Notes: generated by a model from the sequence alone, not told the origin. Shown: positions 14,860 to 42,265, numbered from the stretch's first letter. The stretch: DNA of 59,080 nucleotides from Candidatus Methylacidithermus pantelleriae (GCF_905250085.1 NZ_CAJNOB010000006.1:1-59080); one strand, 5' to 3'. Program-made: numbers and translations.

Positions 14860-16239
14860 ATGGGGGATGTAGGCCTCTATCAAACCGTCCGGCTTGCCCC
14901 GACTCTTTCCCCGCAGATGCGTCAATCCCTTACGCTTCTGCAGGCCCCCGCGCTTGAGCTTCGAGCTTTGGTAGCCCAGGAGCTCGCAATGAACCCGGTT
15001 TTGGAAGAGTGGGAAGAACAAGTGCGCCGGGAAGAGGAAGACCTTGAGACGGTCATTCAAGAGGAACTTGAATGGGACGACTACTTTTCCCAACTGCAAG
15101 GCGCCAATGGGTACGATGAGGAAGCCGCCGAGAAGAGGCGCCACTTTTTTGAATCCCAATCAGTCGGGCCTACGCTGGCGGAGCATCTGGAAGCCCAGCT
15201 TGGTTGGGTAACCAAGGACGCCACGATGCGGAGGGCCGCCCAAGAAATCATTGGCAATCTCGACGAGGACGGCTATTTGCGGGTTCCCCTGGAGGAAGTG
15301 AGCCTGGGGTGCGGGTTAGCCCTGGATACGGTCAAAGAGGCGCTCCAGCTGGTCCAGTCTCTGGATCCGGTTGGGGTAGGTGCACGGGATCTGAAGGAAT
15401 GCTTGCTCCTTCAGCTGGATAGGCTTGGAAGGCGGGAGGATGTAGAGGGAAAAATCGTTGCGCAATATCTCGAAGAGCTGGGCAAAAAGAAGTGGCAAGT
15501 CATTGCGCGAGCTCTTCGGGTTTCCTTGGACCGGGTACGCGAGGCAGCGGATTTGATCTCCAGCCTTGATCCCAGACCTGGAGCTCGCTTCAGCCGGGAC
15601 GAAAAATTCCGGGTGATTCAAGCCGACCTCATTGCCGAAAAAGTTGGTGAGCGGTGGATTGCGATTCCGAATGAGGCGGTGGTTCCCCGGCTGCGGATTA
15701 GTGATACCTACAAGGAGCTTTTGGCCTCATCCCATTCCGATCCTTCTGTCCGGCAGTATCTCCGAGAAAAAATCCGTGCGGGTCGCTTTCTCATTAAATG
15801 TCTTCTTTTGCGGGAACAGACGCTATTGAACGTCGCCAATGCTATTGTCCAACATCAACAAGAGTTTTTTGAAAAAGGAGCGATTGCGCTTCGGCCTCTT
15901 ACCATGAATCAAATTGCAAGCGAGGTGGGGATCCATGAAACAACCGTGAGCCGCGCGATTGCCCATAAGTACATGGAAACCCCCTGGGGCATGTACGAGC
16001 TTAAATACTTTTTCTCTTCGGGATACCAAATTTCCAACGGTGCCGTTGTGTCCACCCGCTGCATTAAGGAAGCAATTGCGGAAATGATAGCTCGGGAGGA
16101 CCCAAGACGTCCCTTGTCTGACCAGGAGCTTGTAGCGCGACTCGCCGAGAGAGGGATCCGGCTGGCAAGGCGTACTGTTGCCAAGTACCGGGCGAGCTTG
16201 CGCATTTTGCCTTCCCATCTTCGAAAGTCGGCCCCCTAG
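14860..16239 (+). CDS. rpoN: RNA polymerase sigma-54 factor
   Basis: 459 residues with the three regions of sigma-54. Region I is a Gln/Leu-rich activator-interacting helix (LAPTLSPQMRQSLTLLQAP). An acidic region II and the core-binding domain follow, then the DNA-binding domain with a helix-turn-helix (ASEVGIHETTVSRAIAHKYM) and the RpoN box ARRTVAKYRA at residues 436-445, which contacts the -24 element. Length and motifs are normal. Sigma-54 needs AAA+ activators, none of which are in the window. The 3' flank switches abruptly into an A+T-rich block of mobile-element origin. Confidence 0.97.
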   Translation: MGDVGLYQTVRLAPTLSPQMRQSLTLLQAPALELRALVAQELAMNPVLEEWEEQVRREEEDLETVIQEELEWDDYFSQLQGANGYDEEAAEKRRHFFESQSVGPTLAEHLEAQLGWVTKDATMRRAAQEIIGNLDEDGYLRVPLEEVSLGCGLALDTVKEALQLVQSLDPVGVGARDLKECLLLQLDRLGRREDVEGKIVAQYLEELGKKKWQVIARALRVSLDRVREAADLISSLDPRPGARFSRDEKFRVIQADLIAEKVGERWIAIPNEAVVPRLRISDTYKELLASSHSDPSVRQYLREKIRAGRFLIKCLLLREQTLLNVANAIVQHQQEFFEKGAIALRPLTMNQIASEVGIHETTVSRAIAHKYMETPWGMYELKYFFSSGYQISNGAVVSTRCIKEAIAEMIAREDPRRPLSDQELVARLAERGIRLARRTVAKYRASLRILPSHLRKSAP

Positions 16240-16278
16240 GATCCTGCAAAAGTCAACGATAATTAAGTCGACGAATAA

Positions 16279-16929
16279 GACTCAATAAAAGACCCGAGCA
16301 TAGCGCTTTTCGGGAGGCTGTGCGTCATCCCGTTCTATGCAAGGTTCGTTGATGGTCTTGAGGAAGATAGACCTCCGACCTTCAAGAGGGAGATCAATAT
16401 CGAAGGGAAGTTCGAACAAGAAAGGTCAGGGATACTAAACTGGATGCTGGACGGGTTAAGTTGGTGGTTAAATGGTAGCCGGATAAAGAAGGAAATGGAG
16501 AAGGTGGAGTCGGTAAGGCGGATGACAATGGAGTTCTTCACCGAGGGGAATGTTTTTTATGGGTGGTTGCTCGAGTGCACGGTAAGGGATGGTAGTTCGG
16601 TTACTCCTTTTGAGAAGCTATATGAGAGTTTCAGACCATATTGCGAAAATTACGGAGAGAAGGAGGTAATCAAACCGTGCTACTTCTCCAGGTATCTGAA
16701 ACAAGCTGTGTTCCCTGCTGTTGCGAAAAACCGTCCACCGGACAGGCAAGGGATTCGGTTGAAGAGGGAGGACAATGTGCGTGGTGACCAAGAACCTCAA
16801 GTGATCCGTTTCCCACAGTCTCCGTTACAGAGGGTTTTGCAGGAGGAAGGGTATCGGGTGGCCCAGTCGGAAGAAGGACCGAATGGAGAGGTTTTGGAGG
16901 AGGAAGGAGAGGATCAAGAACCGTTTTAA
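16279..16929 (+). pseudogene. C-terminal remnant of a D5/P4-type phage or plasmid primase-helicase
   Basis: The frame is open from just after a TAA at 16276 to the stop at 16929, with no start codon before 16444, so the 5' part is missing. Near 16312-16340 it reads GRLCVIPFYARF, the RL..IPF motif that follows the superfamily 3 helicase core in D5/P4-like proteins. Next come a helix ending SGILNWMLDGLSWWL (the typical 'gIlaWlv.G...w' block) and a winged-helix piece (PFEKLYESFRPYCENYGE...). The Walker A and B region is gone. The remnant is A+T-rich and directly precedes a cassette of small genes, so it marks the trace of an integrated plasmid or phage-like element. Confidence 0.7.
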
Positions 16930-16948
16930 ACCAAAAAAGGAGGTAGAA

Positions 16949-17368
16949 ATGCTGAATGTGACAGGAAATGCTGAATATGGTAGGGATAGCGCTAGAACCA
17001 TTTGTGAGAAGCTTAGTAAGATAGAAAACCTAGCTAGGAAAGCTAAGGAGGAGATAGAACAATCGAAAGATCATTGGTATGGGCTTAAGTCACATATTTG
17101 AAAAGCTAGGAAATTGGTTGATGAGTGTGGTAAATTGGATGGTGGTGAGGAATACGCGGTTGTTGATGCCGGAACGGGAGATGGGCTTGAAATGATATGT
17201 GGAATAAGAAGAGAAATAGAAGATCTAACATCTCTTCTTAGAGACATAGAGGAATCTATGAGTGAGAAATTGGGGGAGGGTGGTTATAAATGCTTTATTG
17301 TCCTTGAGCTATGCGAATTACTTGGGTCAGAGTTGGAACATGTGTTTGGACTAAGTAGGACCCAATGA
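16949..17368 (+). pseudogene. Small helical protein interrupted by an in-frame TGA
   Basis: ATG 16949 is preceded by an excellent ribosome site (AAAAAAGGAGGT). Coding runs 50 residues to a TGA at 17099-17101, then continues in the same frame as KARKLVDECGKLDGG and on for about 88 more residues to 17368. Charged helical character persists on both sides of the stop, and the next gene overlaps the final TGA by ATGA. The simplest reading is one ~138-residue helical protein cut by a nonsense mutation. Two separate small proteins, or readthrough, are alternatives; the second half has no good start of its own (an ATG at 17114 has no ribosome site). No family is recognised. Confidence 0.5.
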
Positions 17369-17673
17369 AACGGTCGATCCTGGTCCTATGCATCGGCATG
17401 CTGCTGTCCGCCAGCACCGTAACGGGAAGGTGCTACGGGTACTTTGGTAATCGGTTGGAGGAGGTAGAAGAGAAGCTGGATGATGTGAAGGATTCTATGG
17501 ATACCTTGGAGGAATCCTTGGATGAAATAAAGAATTCATTGGATGAGAAGTCTGTGGGTGACTTGGAGGAATCCTTGAATGAAGTTAAAAGTTCCTTGGA
17601 TGATGTAAAGAGTTCCTTGGATGATATCGAGGATACCTTGAGAGATATCGAGAGGTGGGAGATGCTGAGGTGA
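17365..17673 (+). CDS. Secreted or periplasmic coiled-coil repeat protein
   Basis: A 102-residue protein whose ATG overlaps the preceding stop (ATGA at 17365-17368). Residues 1-21 form a clear signal peptide (MKRSILVLCIGMLLSAS...). The rest is almost entirely a coiled coil of seven-residue units of the form SLDEIKN or SLDDVKS. Codon use is A+T-rich compared with the flanking housekeeping genes. The family is not recognised. Short heptad-repeat envelope proteins of this kind can be phage superinfection-exclusion or lipoprotein-like structural factors, but that is speculation. It is part of the small-gene cassette behind the primase remnant. Confidence 0.6.
   Translation: MKRSILVLCIGMLLSASTVTGRCYGYFGNRLEEVEEKLDDVKDSMDTLEESLDEIKNSLDEKSVGDLEESLNEVKSSLDDVKSSLDDIEDTLRDIERWEMLR
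17590..17631 (+). repeat. Tandem 21-bp (7-codon) coiled-coil repeat
   Basis: Two adjacent 21-base units (17590-17610 and 17611-17631) begin with the identical 15 bases AGTTCCTTGGATGAT and differ in only a few bases after that. More diverged units extend upstream to about 17470. They encode the SLDDVKS-type heptads, so the repeat probably grew by slippage. Confidence 0.7.
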
Positions 17674-17900
17674 TAGCCTTGGAAGAATGGGAGGATTCCT
17701 GGGGGCTCTTCGCCTGCCGGAAGCTAAGTATGGTCTCCGAGGAGTTCGAATTCGTTTCGGACCGGCAGGATGGGAGTGTTTGGATGAAGGTGGACTACAT
17801 CGAGGCAAAGCCTACCGGAGGGGAAGTGTGGGAGCAAAGATCTGTCAAGAAAAGCCGATTTCTGAGACCGGAAAGGGACTGCGGTACTCGCCAACGGTGA
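17670..17900 (+). CDS. Small acidic protein, last gene of the A+T-rich cassette
   Basis: A GTG at 17670 overlaps the TGA of the secreted coiled-coil gene (GTGA), giving a 76-residue product; a second GTG at 17655 would add 5 residues. A purine-rich GAGGTGGGAG lies just upstream. The sequence is acidic and Trp-rich with alternating strands (EFEFVSDRQDGSVWMKVDYIEA), which looks like a small folded beta protein rather than random translation. No family is recognised. Coupling to two upstream small ORFs is the main support that it is real. Confidence 0.4.
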   Translation: MIALEEWEDSWGLFACRKLSMVSEEFEFVSDRQDGSVWMKVDYIEAKPTGGEVWEQRSVKKSRFLRPERDCGTRQR

Positions 17901-18343
17901 CGTTTCGCTGTGTCCGATCCTTCCAACTTCCTTTCCGGTCCGCACGTGAGAGGTGAGGAGTCCTTTGGGGTGTTCCTTTTGGCTAAGAGCGGGATGCCGG
18001 AAGTAACCGAAACCTCCCGAGCTGGCTTCCCGGGAGTCGTCCGTGGGAAAAAGCGGCCTTTTTAGCCACATGGAATCGCAAGACCTTGTTCAGGTTCCTT
18101 TTGCATGGTCTGTGGGACGTGTGCGCTTTTGAGAAGGGAAGAAGTCTTTTTTTTTTCCAGAAAGCTTCTAGGAGGGGGTAGGGGGAGAAAAAAAGACTCT
18201 AGGAACGGAAGGGAGCTTTGCTAGGTAGCCCGGGACATCGGCTAGGGGCAAAAGAGGGCAGGAAAAAACTTAGAATTGGCCCAAGGCGTTACCCAACGGG
18301 TTTCTTTTCTCTTTTTCTTTCGCTGGCTTTTTGGAGAAGGTTC
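17901..18343. other. Gap between the A+T-rich cassette and DUF2905
   Basis: About 440 bases. G+C returns to the window norm here. Some T- and A-runs are present (for example near 18147), but no hairpin followed by a T-run, tRNA or coding segment could be supported. This would be where the right edge of the integrated material lies, and no repeat marking it was found. Confidence 0.35.
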
Positions 18344-18604
18344 TTACCGGCGCAAGAAAAGCCGGTAGATCCAAAGAGCTACGGTCAAAAGAAAACTCAG
18401 TAAAAGGCAGGTCGCTAAGGGAAAATAGAAAGAAAAATTACCCTTCTCGATACGGATGTCTCCGGGCAAGCGTCCCAGCCAGCCCCGGCCGAAACCACTA
18501 GAGAGTACCAGCCCGGCAACAACAAGAGCGATCCCCGTTAGGATGAGAAACCGTCCCAATTCTCGCACATTAACATATTGATCCCAGAAAGGCTTGTCTT
18601 GCAA
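18344..18604 (-). CDS. DUF2905 family membrane protein
   Basis: An 86-residue protein with two transmembrane helices around a conserved loop: LGRFLILTGIALVVAGLVL, then LGRLPGDIRIEKGNFSFYFP, then a second helix LATCLLLSFLLTVALWI. The GRLPGDI and G..SFYFP motifs are the family signature. The function is unknown. It starts with TTG at 18604, 26 bases after alaS on the same strand, so it is probably the last gene of an alaS operon. Confidence 0.85.
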   Translation of the reverse strand: MQDKPFWDQYVNVRELGRFLILTGIALVVAGLVLSSGFGRGWLGRLPGDIRIEKGNFSFYFPLATCLLLSFLLTVALWIYRLFLRR

Positions 18605-34213: not shown

Positions 34214-35351
34214 CGTGCAACGGGTTTTTGGTAAAAAAGCCTAACCAGAAAGCCCAAGCAAGCCCGAGGAAAGATCCGTCTAGGATCGGAAACTTGAGGA
34301 TTCCCAATGCTGTATTCCCGAAGAGGAGAACAGGCCAAGAATACGGGTGGTCATTTGGTTGCACGGAAGATTGCAGGAGATGGTTAGCTTGGAAAATCTC
34401 GCTAGCACGCGCCGAGTAAAGGGCTAAGAATGGGAAAGGCCACTTTTCCCTGGTACAAGGGCGCGAAGAGCTCCTAAGGACAATGAGCAAAAGGGAATGG
34501 ACTTTGATGGGAGAGCGGAGGCAAGGAACTTTTGCGTGCGTGGCCTGCTTTTCGCGGCGGGCGTGGGTCAAGGCGTAAAACGCCGTCCTGCCCACGCCGT
34601 TTCGCACCCTGCACTGAGGAGTTGTGTGCAGCTGTGTCCTGAGGACTTGTGAGAGCAGCAGCCACAGGCGTCGAATGCGCCCATGCCCTGCAAAATCTGG
34701 GTACCGTCCTTGTCGCGCCGGCCCGGTGAGAGAGGGATTGGCGGTGGCCCAGGATTTTGGTAAAGATCCGCAGTCAGCTCTGGGATGAGAGAACCTTTTA
34801 TTTGGGTGATACTCTCAATCGACTCTAGACTACTACTAAGAGACATTCTGTTGAGTCCGGCGCCTCTAGAGTTTAGAGGAAACACTCGAAAGCTTTTCAA
34901 TCGACCGTCCACTTTCTCCCTTGCTTCTTCCTCGAGTTTCCCTCAGCCTTTGCGGTCAAAGGCAAGAAATTGTGAGTCACTCTTGCGGCGGCTGTGATGC
35001 TTGGGACAACGGGGCTCAGCAACTTCTGGAGCCGCTCTTGTAGGTTGGGAACCGGCAGGGTAGCCGTCAAAATGAGAATGGGCCCTCCGGATGGGGTTGC
35101 GAGCTGCGTCCGGGGTGCCGGTGGTTAGTGGCGCCCGGAGCGTCCGGCGCTATCATCTTCGAGCAAGTCGATGGCCAGTCCCACCGGAACCCTTCCATCG
35201 CTTCGGGCCTCCGCAAAGGGTTCTCTTGAGAAGAAACGGGGGGGTTGCCTGCTTAAGCCGAGAGGGTTACAGTGGCCCTTGACATCGCGGCCTCTAGCGA
35301 GCTCAAACGCACGCTATTAAGGCGCAGTTTAAGTTGAGGAGAGATGGAAAA
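34214..35351. other. Gap left of the ATPase/TPR island
   Basis: About 1.1 kb. On the minus strand 34230-34480 encodes two hydrophobic stretches (for example GSFLGLAWAFWLGFF) but without a convincing start, and it would overlap pspC. A Cys-rich frame lies near 34590-34690. The left inverted repeat of the island is at 34811-34835. A TTGAGGAGAG before 35352 is the ribosome site of the ATPase gene. No firm gene otherwise. Confidence 0.35.
34811..34835 (+). repeat. Left imperfect inverted repeat of the ATPase/TPR island
   Basis: CTCTCAATC at 34812-34820 and AGACTACTA at 34827-34835, with 6 bases between, match in inverse orientation the sequence at 38247-38270 (9 + 9 bases, variable centre). Nearby, AGTCCGGCG (34854-34862) also recurs at 38298-38306, in direct orientation. 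Confidence 0.5.
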
Positions 35352-36632
35352 ATGTCCACCTTGCCTCCTGCATCCACTCTAAAGGAAGCCTATGCCAATC
35401 TAGATCCTCTCCGCCCCTTGTCGGGGGATTGGCTAAAGGCTTTTTACGTGGACCGTCCACCGGAGAGTCGCGTGGAGACCCTGCTGGACGAACTGCGACT
35501 GGATCCTAGGGAGGACGACAAGAGCCTCTTTTCCGGCCAGCAGGGGTGCGGGGAGACCACGGAGCTTCATCGCCTCATTGAGGCACTTAAGAGCGACCAT
35601 GTTCCCGTGTATGTTAGTGTCGAGGAAGAACTCAATCTTGCAGATGTACACTATACCGATCTACTCGTTATTCTCGGGTTGAAAGTTTTCAAAGAAGCCG
35701 AAAAAAAAGACATTCCTGTCGATTCCCAAAAACTCCAAAACCTCCACTTCTGGTACGAGAAGAAGATTCTGGAGCGGGTCGAGAAGCAGCAGTGCCAAAC
35801 AGACACCAGCGTCAATGTGAACCTGGCTCTGTTCACAATTGGCTCCCGGCTGGCCAAGGAAAGCCCTTTCCGGCAGCATGTGCGGGCGCAAACCGAGGCC
35901 AACCTCTCGGACCTGCTAGAGCGCCTCAATGATTTGTTGACCGACTTCCGCAAGCAGTTCGGCCGCCGCATCCTCATCGTGGTGGATGGGCTGGACAAAA
36001 TCTACGACCTAGATCAGGCGGCCGGGCTATTCCTCAACGGTGCCAATGCGCTGATTTCACCGGCCTGCCGGGTTATCTACACGCTACCTTACCCACTTTT
36101 CTACCGAGATGACTTCCAGCAAGTGCGCCAGCAGTTCCACCGCAACTTCCTGCTGCCTAACGTCAAGACGCGACAGTCCGATGGCACCCCGTATGAAGCG
36201 GGTCGGAAGATGCTGAAAGAGCTCATCCTCAAGCGGATGGAAGAGAAACTAATCACTCCCGAGGCCTTGGATATCCTGGTCGATGCTTCAGGTGGTCTGT
36301 TGCGGGAACTCCTGCGCCTGGCGCGGGGTGCAGTGACTTCGGCGTGTCACCGGAACAATGCACGGATCACCTGTGAGGACGTACAGTGCGCCTTCCAGGA
36401 GATTCAGAACAGCTTCCGTCGCATCTTGAAGGTAGAAGACTACCAGCATTTATGGCGGGTGTATGAGACAAAGCGTTTGGATGAAGTGCCTTCCTTGGCG
36501 GGGAACCGGTTGTTACGGAACATGAGCGTGTTAGAGTACAATGGGGAGACCTGGTGGGACCTTCATCCAGCAGTTCGGGCGCTCTTGGAAAAAACGCCCG
36601 CCGGAAGCGGAGGGGGAATAACCCGTGGCTAA
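35352..36632 (+). CDS. P-loop NTPase (AAA/STAND-like) with altered Walker A
   Basis: 426 residues from ATG 35352, 8 bases after GAGGAG; an in-frame TTG at 35334 is less likely. Residues 62-70 hold the Walker A loop, read as GQQGCGETT: glutamate 68 (GAG at 35553-35555) stands where the nucleotide-binding lysine belongs. Walker B is RILIVVDGLDKI at 206-217. A helical C-terminal region (about 290-400) resembles the lid and winged-helix part of AAA/STAND ATPases. No transmembrane segment is seen. Its stop overlaps the start of the TPR gene by 8 bases, so the two are translated together. Function is unknown; ATPase-plus-TPR pairs are typical of signalling or defence islands. Confidence 0.8.
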   Translation: MSTLPPASTLKEAYANLDPLRPLSGDWLKAFYVDRPPESRVETLLDELRLDPREDDKSLFSGQQGCGETTELHRLIEALKSDHVPVYVSVEEELNLADVHYTDLLVILGLKVFKEAEKKDIPVDSQKLQNLHFWYEKKILERVEKQQCQTDTSVNVNLALFTIGSRLAKESPFRQHVRAQTEANLSDLLERLNDLLTDFRKQFGRRILIVVDGLDKIYDLDQAAGLFLNGANALISPACRVIYTLPYPLFYRDDFQQVRQQFHRNFLLPNVKTRQSDGTPYEAGRKMLKELILKRMEEKLITPEALDILVDASGGLLRELLRLARGAVTSACHRNNARITCEDVQCAFQEIQNSFRRILKVEDYQHLWRVYETKRLDEVPSLAGNRLLRNMSVLEYNGETWWDLHPAVRALLEKTPAGSGGGITRG

Positions 36633-38214
36633 ACCTGCGAGTGTCGAGGCCGACGAGAGCTCGGCACCCCTTGCGTGGTTCCGGGAGGCTTTAACTCTCT
36701 TGGAAGGAGCCGCGTTCTTTTTCGTCGTAGATCCGGCCGGCGGGCCACCAGTGAAGGGGAAGGAGGCGCTGGGCCGCATCCTTGGCGGTCGGCCTCTGGT
36801 GGAGGTTAGAGTCTCTCCGGAGGCGCCTCTGGATCTGAACGCGTTGAAGGAGCAGCTGGAACAGAATCGCGGGTCGGTCGTTCTACTGGATGCGGTCGAT
36901 TTGGAATGGGCTGACCTGGAGGTGAGCCTTGGGGGAACGCTGGCCGAACGGGTCGAAAGGGCCCAACGGGTGCTTCAGGACCTGAACATGAAGCGCGACG
37001 CCCTGGCCCGATTGGGGGCACCTGTGGTGTTCTGGGTCACTCCGGCCGGGTTGCGGGCCTTTAGCCTTTGGGCGGCGGATCTCTTTTCTGCCAACAGCGG
37101 AGTTTTCGAGATCGCTCCTGCGCCCTCACCGTCAGAGGGAGACCTCTTGTGGGAACCATGGATCCCAGCCAGCCGTCATCGGAACCTGCCTGAGGCCGAA
37201 GTGCGCGGCCGAATCCGTTTCTATGAACGCCAGTTGGAGGGAGAGGCTCGCAAACGGACCCCACATCGTCCCCTGCTAGCTGGCCTGCACACGGAATTGG
37301 CCTTCCTTTATGGGCAACTTGGGGATCACCTTCGCGCACTGGAACACCAGCAAAAGGCGGTAAACCTGCACCGCGAATTAGCCGAGGAGAACCCTCAGGC
37401 TTTTCTTCCCAGCCTGGCGACGAGCCTCAATAACCTTGGGACCTACCTTTCCGCTTTGGGCCAACGGGAGGAGGCACTTGCAGCCACACAGGAGGCCGTA
37501 GACCTCTACCGGAAACTGGCCGCCCAGAACCCTCAGGCTTTCCTCTGCCACTTGGCCAGCAGCCTCACCAACTTGGGCGGAATGTTCGCTAACCTAGGTC
37601 GGTGGCAAGAGGGGCTCGCAGCCACACAGGAGGCTGTGCAACTCTACCGAAAACTGGTCATGGACAACTCCCAGGCCTTTCTCCCTGACCTGGCCATGAG
37701 CCTCACCAACCTTGGCACTATGCTGGCCAACTTGGGCCGGCGGGAGGAGGCACTGGCGGTCGTCCAGGAGGCGCTGGGTATCCGCCACAAACTGGCCGCC
37801 CAGAACCCTCAGGTTTTTCTTCCTGCCCTGGCCGCGAGCCTCGCCACCCTGGGCAATACCCTGGCTAAGCTGGGCCGGTGGTGGGAGGCGCTTGAACCCA
37901 CTCAGCAGGCCGTAGATTTCTACCGGAAACTCGCTTCACAGAACCCTCAGATTTTTCTTCCTGCCCTGGCCGCGAGCCTCAAGAACTTAGGCACCACGCT
38001 CGTTAACCTAGGACGTGGCCAGGAGGCACTTGCAGCTACACAGGAGGCCGTAGACCTCTTGCGGAAACTCGCTTCACAGAACCCTCAGGTTTTTCTTCCC
38101 GCCCTGGTCGCGAGCCTCACCACCCTAGGCACCGCGCTGGCCAAGCTGGGCCGGAAGGAGGAGGCAGCGGCGGTGGCCCAGGAAGTTGAGAAGGTCCGCA
38201 GCCAGCTGGCATAA
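36625..38214 (+). CDS. Large TPR protein with N-terminal inactive-NTPase-like domain
   Basis: 529 residues from GTG 36625, behind GGAGGGGG and overlapping the ATPase gene. Residues ~1-190 form an alpha/beta domain with strands such as GSVVLLDAVDLEWADLE and APVVFWVTPAGLRAFSLWAADLF but no P-loop. This pattern resembles the inactive STAND (iSTAND) NTPase-like domains found ahead of TPRs in conflict systems, an inference from memory of the family. Residues ~215-529 are TPR-type helical repeats of 46 residues, each opening NPQ.FLP.LA.SL..LG. TPRs bind proteins or peptides, so this is likely the sensor or scaffold partner of the ATPase. Confidence 0.8.
   Translation: MAKPASVEADESSAPLAWFREALTLLEGAAFFFVVDPAGGPPVKGKEALGRILGGRPLVEVRVSPEAPLDLNALKEQLEQNRGSVVLLDAVDLEWADLEVSLGGTLAERVERAQRVLQDLNMKRDALARLGAPVVFWVTPAGLRAFSLWAADLFSANSGVFEIAPAPSPSEGDLLWEPWIPASRHRNLPEAEVRGRIRFYERQLEGEARKRTPHRPLLAGLHTELAFLYGQLGDHLRALEHQQKAVNLHRELAEENPQAFLPSLATSLNNLGTYLSALGQREEALAATQEAVDLYRKLAAQNPQAFLCHLASSLTNLGGMFANLGRWQEGLAATQEAVQLYRKLVMDNSQAFLPDLAMSLTNLGTMLANLGRREEALAVVQEALGIRHKLAAQNPQVFLPALAASLATLGNTLAKLGRWWEALEPTQQAVDFYRKLASQNPQIFLPALAASLKNLGTTLVNLGRGQEALAATQEAVDLLRKLASQNPQVFLPALVASLTTLGTALAKLGRKEEAAAVAQEVEKVRSQLA
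37390..38214 (+). repeat. 138-bp direct repeats encoding 46-residue TPR units
   Basis: Units begin at 37390, 37528, 37666, 37804, 37942 and 38080, each opening with an AAC codon followed in most units by CCTCAG. Neighbouring units share long identical words (for example TTTTTCTTCCTGCCCTGGCC in the fourth and fifth). The last unit is shorter. High identity between units implies recent duplication or gene conversion. Confidence 0.85.
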
Positions 38215-39750
38215 GAGATCCCTGAGAAGCTCTTTCCGTGCTGGGCTAGTAGTCTCAATAGATTGAGAGATTCTTCGTGTTGATAGAACTTCTATTTAGT
38301 CCGGCGTGTTCTCGCTTAATTTCGACACTGTTTGAAGGTAAGTGACTGTAGCCGAGCGAATGAATGGTTTTGTCCTGCCCACGTGCTCGATCCCTTTCGG
38401 CCCCCGAGAAACAAGGGGAAGCAGGGCCATTTTTTTCGAATCGTTCGTTTCCTTCTTTACGTATTTCGCAAAGCATTCGGCGCTCAAATGTGCCTTTAGA
38501 GAAAAGTCGCGCTTACCCGGGTAACTTAAAAGCGACGAAGGGTTTAGGAAATTTCCTCCGTCGAAGCCTTTCGAGATCGATTGGCTTCGGAGGCGGGGGG
38601 TAAGCCTGTAGGCCAAAAAAGATCTGGATGGAAGTGCGGATTCGGGTCGTCGCCCCGGCCAGGGATTCACGGAACGGACTTCTAGGAAGCTTTTGAGCTG
38701 GCAAAAGGCCCGATTCAAACCTCGGCGAGTCGCTTCGGAATGAGTGAGGATCTCTCCGGGGGAAGCTTCCGGCGGGGAGAGACGGGGCTGCACCAGATAT
38801 TATCTCTCGATCGCTTCCCTTTCTGGGGTCCGCTACTCTTTTTACGTTTCCACCCGAAGCGGGCCTCAGGGTCGACCCCGTACAACGAAGTATGGATCGG
38901 CTCGGAGGCAAAAGAGCGCTCCAATGGACCGGGCTCCCCAGTGTGAGCGGATCGGCTTTTTTCGCGATCGTTTTGGGAATTTCGGCCAATCCCTCCTTAG
39001 GAGAAGCCACCCAGCTTTTCCGTCGGGCTCCATTGCTCAATGCGTGGCCATTTTCCTCCGGCAATGACCTATCTAATGCCATTGCCGTTCGCCTCGATCA
39101 CTTGACTCCGGCGGGTAAGCCAAGGCCACCGATCTTTTGGGAAGATCGCGAGAATACCTCTTGGAGCTTGGCCTCGCTTGGCTCAAGCAAAGATACGCAA
39201 GCCTCCCCTCTCCTTCGAGCGCCTACAAGTTCCACCGGCTTTTTGCTTCCTCTCTCAAGAACAAAGGTTTTTCTTTTCTTGGATCTCCAACGGTCCTTGG
39301 AACGTCACGAGTAAGCCCAGAAGAGTCTTCAAATCCGCCCGGGCTTCAGCAGGAAATCTTTGCAAGAAAACCGGAACTCCTTCAGCATGCGAAGCAAGGA
39401 AGAAGAAGCAGAGGCCTCTACTGCGTCTGGGGGTTACTGGCCAGCGAAAGACCACGAGCTTTAAAGGTTGGCGTGATGCTCCCGGATCCGGAAAGGTAAG
39501 AGTCCCAAGGGGAAGGCCAAGAGCCACTACTCCACGTACTGTTTTTCACGGCACCCTCCTTTTAGCGCGTTCATTGGGACGATCGCTTGGGACACAAATG
39601 TACCTTTCGCTCCAGGGTCTCCTTCAGGGGACCTTCTTCCGATGCCTTGACTCGGAGAGAAGTCTTCGCTACGAGAGGGCGAAGGGGACACCTTCTTACA
39701 TGTCGAGGTCAGCCTGGCGTCCCCAGATCCCGAAAAGCAATCCCTCCGGG
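38215..39750. other. Long gene-free stretch right of the island
   Basis: About 1.5 kb, the longest empty region in the window. Many overlapping open frames are present on both strands, none with a recognisable motif, ribosome site or consistent codon use. Apart from the right inverted repeat at its start, nothing could be identified. It is probably eroded accessory DNA. Confidence 0.4.
38247..38270 (-). repeat. Right imperfect inverted repeat, partly palindromic
   Basis: TAGTAGTCT and GATTGAGAG flank a short centre and match the left repeat at 34811-34835 in reverse. The right copy is itself a palindrome (TCTCAAT-AG-ATTGAGA, 38253-38268), 39 bases past the TPR stop. It could double as a weak transcription-end hairpin, though no T-run follows. 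Confidence 0.5.
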
Positions 39751-40587
39751 CTACCGGGATTGGGTGTTCGCAGGGGTCCACACGGCGAGAATGGGTCCCA
39801 TTGGACCCCTTTCTTTCCAGATGCCTAGGGGAAGAGAGTAGATACTCGAAATGGAACCGTCCAGGTAGAGTGCTTCCCGGCAGGAAAAATTCTTGCGAAA
39901 GATGAGAGCAAACTCATAGAGCGTCACCGGGGTTTCGGTAATAACGAAAACGACCCGGTGGCGATCGAGCAGGCCCACTCCATTTCGTATGTAGCGCGAG
40001 CGGCTGTGCATGGGGATTGCAGGGGTTATTTCTCCGTGGTGCACTAAAAGAGGACCGGATTGAGTAGCCCAAAGGAAATCCGCTTGCTTGGCCTCCATTT
40101 CTTCGGAAGGGCCAATCCAAGCTTGCCAGCGATTCCAGGCCAACACGCCGTTGGGTTTGAGATAAAAATTCCCAAATCCTTTCCTTTGATTGAGCTTCAC
40201 AAGCTCTTTGCCCCCCTCTACGTACCAACCGACCGGAGAAAGATCCGGTTCGTACATGCCTCCATTTGTGGCAAAAAGAACCTTTTTGCCTTGAGCCTCT
40301 AGGTAATGGAAGAGGCTGTGGAAAGAGCCAAAGGGTTGCCCGGCCGGATTTTTCCAGAAAAGTTCCAGGCGGTCCTGGGAAAGTTCTACCACGCAGTGGA
40401 TTGCCGTTCCAAAAGGGAGAGGTTGGCTTGAACAGGAGAGCGCCCTGGCGGGCAAGGGCAAAGCAGCCAAAAAACTAGCGCCCATAAGTGCCACCTTTTG
40501 GCCCGTGCTTGCCGAATAAAAGAGGGAGACTCTTCTCTTGGGGTTCTTTTTTCGATTTGGGCGCCCATGGGGTGTAGAGATAGCCAT
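39751..40587 (-). CDS. Phosphodiester glycosidase family protein (DUF2233/NAGPA-like)
   Basis: About 278 residues from ATG 40587, behind AGGGA. After a basic start, VALMGASFLAALPLPARALS looks like the hydrophobic core and cleavage region of a signal peptide, so export is likely. The family signature is visible in LFATNGGMYEPDLSPVGWYV, FGNFYLKPNGVLAW, ATQSGPLLVHHGEI and ALYLDGSISS. Relatives include the enzyme that uncovers mannose-6-phosphate and bacterial exopolysaccharide-linked proteins. The actual substrate is unknown. It is the last gene of the minus-strand envelope group after murJ. Confidence 0.82.
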   Translation of the reverse strand: MAISTPHGRPNRKKNPKRRVSLFYSASTGQKVALMGASFLAALPLPARALSCSSQPLPFGTAIHCVVELSQDRLELFWKNPAGQPFGSFHSLFHYLEAQGKKVLFATNGGMYEPDLSPVGWYVEGGKELVKLNQRKGFGNFYLKPNGVLAWNRWQAWIGPSEEMEAKQADFLWATQSGPLLVHHGEITPAIPMHSRSRYIRNGVGLLDRHRVVFVITETPVTLYEFALIFRKNFSCREALYLDGSISSIYSLPLGIWKERGPMGPILAVWTPANTQSR

Positions 40588-40639
40588 CGATATCCCTGTG
40601 GAAAAACTCAGTCCCGAGCTTCTCGGATCGCTGTCCTTT

Positions 40640-42265
40640 TTACACTCCAACCAGGCCTCGGTAAATCCTGGCCCACCGGGCGCGTGCTGCCTGTAAAAGG
40701 AGGGTTGCTTCGGGTAAAGTGAGCCACCGGCCGGCGACAAAGTATACACCGGCCGCCGTGACAACGGTGGTGAAAAGACTCAGTGCAAGGGAGTAACCGT
40801 GTCGCGTTTGAAGAACCCAACCATGTTCGAGCGCATAAGCGACGATGGTGCATGCTGCGGCTGCCAGGGAAAGCTTAAGGGAGAAAGTGCTCCAGCCCTT
40901 TTGGTTTTCGGTAGCGACTTCCCGGGGGAGAGCTCTCCAGAGTTGCCAGCAGTTGAGGGTCGCCACGGCTGAGGTCGAAAGAGCCAGTCCCAGATGCCCG
41001 AGATGGAGCAGGTGCATAAAGATCCAATTAAGAAGAAAATTGATGGTGATACCGATGAGCGAAACTCGCAGCGGAATTTGGGGGAGATCCAAGGCGTAAA
41101 AGCAGGGACTTAAGACCTTGATCGCTGCGTAGCTTGAAAGTCCTAAAGCGTACACTTGAAGTGCCCCTGCTGTTTGGAGGGTATCGTCAGCTGTAAACCT
41201 GCCGTGCTGGTAGATGAGTCGAACAAGTGGTTCTGCCAGGACGGCAAGGCCGAGGGAGGAGGGAACCGTCAGAAAAAAAGCCAATCGAAGGGATTCTCTT
41301 ACCCGGCGCCCGAAGGAGGGGAAATCGGCCCGAGATTGGTCCCTGGCTACAGCGGGAAGGGTTACGGTGGCAATCGCGACTCCGAAGACCCCAATGGGGA
41401 ATTGCATCAAGCGGAAGGCACAGGATAGCCAGGACCGAGCTCCGTTGATCTGGCTGGCAAACGCTCCGTTGACAAGGACATTGATCTGCACGGCTGCGCC
41501 GGCCAACAGTGTAGGCAGCATGAGCTTCCAGATTTCTTGGAGATGCGGATCGTTCCAGGTGGTATCCCATCGGTAGCGATACCCAAGCCGGGAAAGGGGG
41601 GGGACTTGGATCGCCAGTTGAGCCAGGCCCCCCAGAAGCACTCCGAAACAGACTCCATAGAGGGCCCGTGGGCCAAAGCGCGGATGAAAGGGTTCGTTTT
41701 GGGGATCGAAAAGGTAAGCCAAAAGAACCCCTAGCAGGACCGAAACGATGTTAAAGGCGGTTGATGCACTGGCTGGCGGACCGAAGACCGAGCGAGCATT
41801 AAGGATACCCATTGCCGAAGCTGCCAGCGAAACCAAGAGAATGAAGGGAAAAAGGATACGGGTAAGGACAATGGTGAGCTCCAATTTTCCGGGTACAGAC
41901 GAAAATCCGAAGTTGGTGATCCAGACGAGTGCTGGGGCGCTTAGGATACCAAGCAACGAGACGAGTGCCATGAAGGTGAACAGGGCCGAAAAGAGCCGAT
42001 TGGCGAGCTTCCAGGATGCTTCGGATCCTTCCTTTTCCCACGTCTTGGCAAAAACGGTGGTAAAAGCTGTCGACAGCGCCCCTTCGGCAAAAAGGTCGCG
42101 CAAAAGATTGGGGATTTGAAAGGCGGCTAGATAAGCGTCGAGGAGCTTGCCAGCTCCAAACATGGCGGCAAAGACAAGCTCGCGGAGGAGTCCAAAAACG
42201 CGAGACAGGGCTACGGCGGCACTGACTAGTGCAGCGGCTCGATGGGTGGAGAGCTCTTCCTTCAT
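40640..42265 (-). CDS. murJ: Lipid II flippase MurJ
   Basis: 541 residues from ATG 42265, chosen because AGGG lies 6 bases upstream; the longer frame begins inside the heptosyltransferase gene. A polytopic MOP-superfamily transporter with about 14 helices. The start SAAVALSRVFGLLRELVFAAMFG and the loop IPNLLRDLFAEGALSTAFTTVF carry the conserved arginines of MurJ. It flips the peptidoglycan precursor lipid II across the inner membrane. It follows the heptosyltransferase gene by 8 bases. Confidence 0.94.
   Translation of the reverse strand: MKEELSTHRAAALVSAAVALSRVFGLLRELVFAAMFGAGKLLDAYLAAFQIPNLLRDLFAEGALSTAFTTVFAKTWEKEGSEASWKLANRLFSALFTFMALVSLLGILSAPALVWITNFGFSSVPGKLELTIVLTRILFPFILLVSLAASAMGILNARSVFGPPASASTAFNIVSVLLGVLLAYLFDPQNEPFHPRFGPRALYGVCFGVLLGGLAQLAIQVPPLSRLGYRYRWDTTWNDPHLQEIWKLMLPTLLAGAAVQINVLVNGAFASQINGARSWLSCAFRLMQFPIGVFGVAIATVTLPAVARDQSRADFPSFGRRVRESLRLAFFLTVPSSLGLAVLAEPLVRLIYQHGRFTADDTLQTAGALQVYALGLSSYAAIKVLSPCFYALDLPQIPLRVSLIGITINFLLNWIFMHLLHLGHLGLALSTSAVATLNCWQLWRALPREVATENQKGWSTFSLKLSLAAAACTIVAYALEHGWVLQTRHGYSLALSLFTTVVTAAGVYFVAGRWLTLPEATLLLQAARARWARIYRGLVGV

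Follow-up and report, generated by a model that had tools for sequence, protein, structure and literature searches.

Two overlapping genes in a gene-poor part of the genome of Candidatus Methylacidithermus pantelleriae, a thermophilic methane-oxidising bacterium, raise the question of what kind of system they encode, how it could work and where it came from. Read from the DNA alone, the original prediction described an ATPase gene coupled to a gene for a tetratricopeptide repeat (TPR) protein, enclosed by inverted repeats and forming a candidate undescribed signalling or defence module. The stretch analysed, hereafter the window, comprises 59,080 nucleotides with a GC content of about 55 % and belongs to a genome of 2.46 Mb in 71 contigs that is 99.9 % complete. 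'Candidatus Methylacidithermus pantelleriae' PQ17 has been described as a metagenome-assembled genome of 2.47 Mb in 71 contigs with 55.2 % GC (PMC8170126).

Locus and gene content

Both open reading frames (ORFs) of the pair, here called gene 1 and gene 2, were real and their 8-base overlap was found again (Table 1). The gene-poor character of the surroundings was likewise confirmed, with no ORF recognised by Pfam, no tRNA and no Rfam RNA in 34214-35333 or 38215-39750, and a promoter and terminator scan was uninformative. The neighbouring genes code for PspC, a cupin, NAGPA and MurJ. The NAGPA phosphodiester glycosidase gene (39751-40764, minus strand) shares bases with the end of murJ, and 12 of 12 family relatives lack it. 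Elsewhere in the window, the region 16000-18600 has a strongly positive GC skew (0.22-0.37) and a low GC content (about 47-50 %), with no long ORF after 16929 and no Rfam or tRNA matches.

Table 1 Features of the gene pair; positions are counted from the first nucleotide of the window
Feature	Position	Strand	Basis
Gene 1, predicted ORC/Cdc6/STAND-type AAA+ protein with C-terminal winged helix, 426 aa	35352..36632	+	ORF, AF2 fold, VIA
Gene 1, degenerate Walker A GQQGCGETTE, residues 62-71; residue 68 is Glu	35535..35564	+	Translation, family alignment
Gene 1, Walker B strand and DGLDK motif, kept (D212, D215)	35967..36002	+	AF2, alignment
Gene 1, Arg295, candidate arginine finger or sensor, invariant in 106/106 homologues	36234..36236	+	Alignment
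Overlap of gene 1 and gene 2, 8 bases; GTG start of gene 2 within the 3' end of gene 1	36625..36632	+	
Gene 2, predicted pseudo-AAA+ N-domain and TPR protein, 529 aa, GTG start	36625..38214	+	
Gene 2, predicted AAA+ domain without P-loop, about residues 14-162, conserved LNxxRE...VFW motif	36664..37110	+	AF2, Foldseek/VIA, motif reading
Gene 2, helical linker (LPEAEVRGRIRFYE) and TPR array	37192..38211	+	Pfam, AF2
138-bp tandem DNA repeat units in gene 2	37319-38170	+	

Predicted structures of the two proteins

The AlphaFold2 model of gene 1 (pLDDT 92, from a 56-row alignment), together with Foldseek and VIA comparisons, predicts an AAA+ core followed by a C-terminal winged helix, a fold of the ORC/Cdc6/STAND type. 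The VIA Z scores were 16.4 with Drosophila Cdc6, 16.0 with Sulfolobus Cdc6/Orc1, 15.8 with archaeal PABY2304 and with TnsC, 14.1 with CED-4 and 13.8 with the plant NLR RPP1. The Pfam matches to AAA_22 and NACHT were all below threshold, an NCBIfam search with the window gene 1 protein gave no match, and a PDB sequence search returned weak Sar1 matches alone. STAND proteins with superstructure-forming repeats carry these on the same chain; here the TPRs sit on the partner, gene 2.

The first approximately 180 residues of gene 2 are also predicted to form an AAA+ fold (pLDDT 84), one without a P-loop; residues 14-162 were modelled mostly with pLDDT >90, and had VIA Z scores of 10-12 with Pex6 and p97. 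The original reading of this domain as an NTPase-like fold lacking a P-loop was therefore upheld by the predicted structure and the VIA matches, which suggest a pseudo-AAA+ or STAND-like domain. No P-loop was present in the window gene 2 or in approximately 80 homologous gene-2 domains inspected, the LNxxRE...VFW motif is a marker common to the homologues, and no Pfam or NCBIfam model covers the domain. The predicted TPR content was confirmed as seven TPR_10 stretches in Pfam. In L103 / L146 the N-domain has, after its first strand, the sequence FFIVTPPGEGKKREMERL, which is oddly Walker A-like, possibly by chance; it occurs in a clade whose true ATPase has lost its Walker A.

Loss of the Walker A lysine in gene 1

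Gene 1 had been described as a P-loop gene; the ORF and the AAA+ fold stood, but the P-loop has no catalytic lysine. Where STAND/ORC-type AAA+ proteins have an intact Walker A, GxxxxGK[ST], the window protein has GQQGCGETTEL. Residue 68 is Lys in 101 of 106 family members and Glu in exactly five (the window and its four nearest relatives, L102, L103, L012 and L104), counts which could under-sample Glu forms because a Lys-containing pattern was one of two patterns used in the main scan for relatives. The corresponding region reads GQQGAGETTEL in L102, GQQGAGESTEL in L103 and SQVGVGETTEL in L012 and L104, and GHRGSGKTTEL in L105, the next relative outside the Glu clade. Sequencing error and a pseudogene were rejected as explanations of the change, since it is common to five independent assemblies. 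The five Glu forms make up one clade (UFBoot 100 / SH-aLRT 99) in a tree computed with the Walker A columns removed, so that a single change from Lys to Glu suffices.

The rest of the site is retained. The Walker B acidic residues and the conserved arginine of such ATPases are present in gene 1 (D212, D215, R295), and the Glu clade keeps these together with Gly65, Gly67, Thr70 and Glu71. Between the two closest members of the clade (96 % identical) dN/dS was 0.09; the window and L102 differ by a dN of 0.29 and a dS of 2.3, a ratio of about 0.13 that is near saturation, as are the deeper comparisons in the clade.

All Chloroflexota genomes found with the Glu form (the Anaerolineae G441, G454, G537 and G557) also hold a Lys form, which is a pair with its own gene 2 in G441, G537 and G557 and a Lys-form ATPase in G454. 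The whole-protein search of Anaerolineae was free of Lys-pattern bias, and Walker A was read at part of its loci. Neither a protein nor a profile search found a second gene-1 copy in the 99.9 % complete window genome.

A widespread family with conserved gene order

Gene 1 had at least 475 relatives in a profile-guided scan, and the 80 that were fetched represent about 15 phyla, including archaea. A homologous gene 2 comes next on the same strand in 78 of the 86 relatives with readable downstream sequence, and its frame opens upstream of the ATPase stop in 69. The nearest gene-2 start codon overlaps the ATPase stop in 51 relatives and lies ≤60 nt away in 24. The pair thus co-occurs, in the order ATPase then pseudo-AAA+ gene, across phyla.

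TPRs were found in 60 of 65 gene-2 tails, and GT4 and HEPN were outside the 25 commonest families. Other tails recognised by Pfam were NACHT, nSTAND1-WD40 and cNMP-binding plus cyclase. By eye rather than by profile, a CHAT-like domain was seen beside L014, an end resembling a class III cyclase in L003 and, in L011, a paralogue of gene 1 with a TIR-like end. No name for the pair was found in the searched libraries; the wider family, although spread over about 15 phyla, both domains and 21 % of sampled Anaerolineae, is nameless.

Some relatives depart from the usual arrangement. On plasmid p057_J of Nostoc sp. C057 (L007, 3348-6272), a gene-1-type ATPase is joined to the C-terminal end of an SAV_2336-N protein, and this fusion immediately follows a MoxR gene, which links the ATPase family to the MoxR ternary conflict systems. 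In two Chlorobiaceae, a calcineurin-type phosphoesterase-like gene replaces the pseudo-AAA+ gene after the ATPase (L039, 8321 onward) and the usual gene 2 is absent (L053, 8187 onward).

Lateral acquisition

Gene 1 is present in 4 of 388 Verrucomicrobiota, including the window genome, compared with 85 of 396 Anaerolineae, and its five nearest relatives (63, 58, 54, 54 and 48 % identity) are all from Anaerolineae. Judged from this distribution and from these relatives, the pair is a lateral acquisition, from Chloroflexota. In the gene tree the window copy nests among Anaerolineae copies, and neither gene was found in 12 other sampled genomes of the family or in 47 genomes of the order. The proposal that the two genes form an accessory module and arrived together agrees with the absence from 12 of 12 family genomes, the nesting and the gene order conserved across phyla. 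Mis-binning or a chimeric contig is unlikely, since the same contig bears a MurJ-GT9-LpxK block syntenic with the family genomes. No clean empty insertion site was found by comparison with these genomes; synteny stops at MurJ, and they lack the NAGPA gene next to it as well.

The inverted repeats which had been proposed to enclose both genes were not borne out, and were rejected as element ends because the matches scored at chance level against dinucleotide shuffles. Among inverted matches the strongest was 34812-34835 / 38246-38269, with 24 columns and one gap (p about 0.03), and among direct matches 34846-34862 / 38290-38306, of 17 nt (p about 0.06), the p values for each lying at about 0.03-0.08. 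A loose gapped direct alignment gave p of about 0.003, the sole such value among four tests. Shuffled sequences contained the TTTAGTCCGGCG core at least as often as the window did, and no second copy of the left flank was found elsewhere in the window genome.

Proposed function and alternative explanations

The reading preferred here, with a probability of roughly 0.5, is that the pair is a horizontally acquired two-gene signalling or conflict switch, belonging to a clade in which neither partner has the Walker A lysine. It is best read as an 'active plus inactive STAND pair' kind of switch for conflict or stress signalling, here cut down to a double pseudo-ATPase. In the wider family, gene 1 with its ORC/Cdc6/STAND-like AAA+ core and winged helix would be the nucleotide-binding partner. 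The AAA+ domain of gene 2, having no P-loop, would never bind nucleotide and most likely hetero-oligomerises with gene 1, and the variable tail (TPR, NACHT, WD40 or cyclase) would sense or fire. ATP turnover has probably been lost in the window clade, as suggested by one residue in gene 1, since both partners are without the Walker A lysine. A scaffold or ligand-driven switch would then be most likely, its assembly driven by TPR binding and not by ATP hydrolysis, with Walker B, Arg295 and the fold of gene 1 retained for subunit contacts. As the pair has no enzymatic effector, it would act through a client protein that it recruits. A more specific version, somewhat less secure, is that of a selected double pseudo-AAA+ pair, in which Lys changed to Glu once, was conserved in that state and passed between phyla, and which would switch on another ligand or with no need of ATP hydrolysis.

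Nucleotide binding in the absence of a Walker A lysine occurs in some P-loop proteins, and it is possible, if rather unlikely, that the window protein binds nucleotide but does not hydrolyse it, or binds an altered ligand such as a metal-bridged nucleotide, with the switch still governed by nucleotide state. Gly65, Gly67, Thr70, Glu71, D212/D215 and Arg295 are all kept, whereas faster erosion would be expected of a dead site, and the low dN/dS in the Glu clade points the same way; however, replacing the phosphate-binding lysine by Glu is, from general knowledge of P-loops, electrostatically unfavourable for a triphosphate, and the loss of the first glycine as well in two clade members (S at 62) suggests that the site is eroding in part. 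The presence of a Lys-form copy in 4 of 4 Chloroflexota genomes with the Glu form, compared with any copy in 85 of 396 members of the class, suggests that the Glu form may have a Lys-form pair as its normal working partner. It could also be taken to mean that the Glu form is a decoy or inhibitor, entering oligomers of the Lys form to block or tune them, and is an orphan in the window genome. This is improbable, as the window genome has no second copy, every Glu form is accompanied by a gene 2 of its own, and the four genomes are a small sample that lacks independence, two of the copies being 96 % identical. That the pair is a decaying, non-functional acquisition, as the lost lysine, the gene-poor flanks and the absence from relatives might indicate, is very improbable: both frames are open over 955 codons with the 8-base coupling kept, the change to Glu is older than the transfer and common to five genomes, and the difference between the window and L102 is strongly synonymous-biased.

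A role in phage defence or stress signalling had also been proposed, and of this the conflict or signalling part is suggested by the partner domains of relatives, namely NACHT, nSTAND1-WD40 and cNMP-binding/cyclase (Pfam), the CHAT- and TIR-like domains seen by eye and the fusion beside MoxR. Domains of these kinds belong to conflict and signalling systems (PMC7159879, PMC8195603), and NACHT, nSTAND1-WD40 and cyclase tails are common in the former. Such tails, the patchy distribution of the pair and a weak, collinear resemblance between relatives and DS41_1_antiphage would fit abortive infection against phages by an AAA+/STAND-type system, but this is doubtful. PADLOC (2023) gave a generic TPR model alone for gene 2 and at most E 0.0026 for gene 1, DS41_1_antiphage (NF053860) had no match in the window genome and scored in relatives far under its cut-off (at most 21.5/370 bits), and the window pair has no recognisable effector. 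The idea of a defence island was rejected: around 14 Anaerolineae loci about 9 of 132 proteins were PADLOC hits, compared with about 10 of 150 in 14 displaced stretches of the same genomes, a small sample with counts taken from family tallies, so neighbours were not enriched. Carriage by phages or viruses was also rejected, with no relatives in a phage collection and none confirmed in viral contigs, where the scan used a Lys-form pattern that the Glu form could escape.

The usual description of STAND/ORC-type AAA+ proteins, among them NLRs and the proteins of apoptosomes, is that of switches driven by ATP. Having fixed a charge reversal at the catalytic lysine and yet stayed under purifying selection, the Glu clade provides a natural test of whether such machines can work without ATP turnover, and the Lys-form sister (48 % identical) offers a clean comparison with the Glu-form members.

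Comparison with known systems

In predicted fold, gene 1 is most like ORC/Cdc6, TnsC and archaeal AAA+ ATPases (2qby, 2qen, 2fna, 7mbw; VIA Z 14-16), from which it differs in having Glu for the Walker A Lys and a coupled pseudo-AAA+/TPR gene. Some relatives are weakly like NCBIfam ATPase_Sll1717 (NF047389) over the P-loop core (at most 37/75 bits), and some like DS41_1_antiphage over the P-loop core and the C-terminal part; the scores are far under the cut-offs and the window protein has no match to either. A conserved inactive STAND-like AAA+ component combined with variable signalling domains is also a feature of the MoxR-vWA-iSTAND ternary systems (PMC7159879), but the window has no MoxR or vWA gene and among the relatives only L007 adjoins MoxR.

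Within the libraries and papers searched, the description of the system as new held, but the nSTAND2 two-gene system (Kaur et al. 2021, PMC8195603, Fig. 6C) has a closely similar design. Its arrangement, a two-gene operon in which one STAND-like NTPase is paired with a second one with eroded motifs fused to variable modules, was found in 78 of 86 relatives. GT4 and HEPN predominate among the nSTAND2 effectors, and the family was placed nearest CR-ATPase/DAP3/RNA12 (PMC8195603); by comparison with this published description, the tails here are TPR, NACHT, WD40 or cyclase, that of the window being TPR only, and the nearest folds are ORC/Cdc6. One partner with intact NTP-binding motifs, as in nSTAND2, is present in the rest of the family, whereas in the window clade gene 1 has also lost its Walker A lysine.
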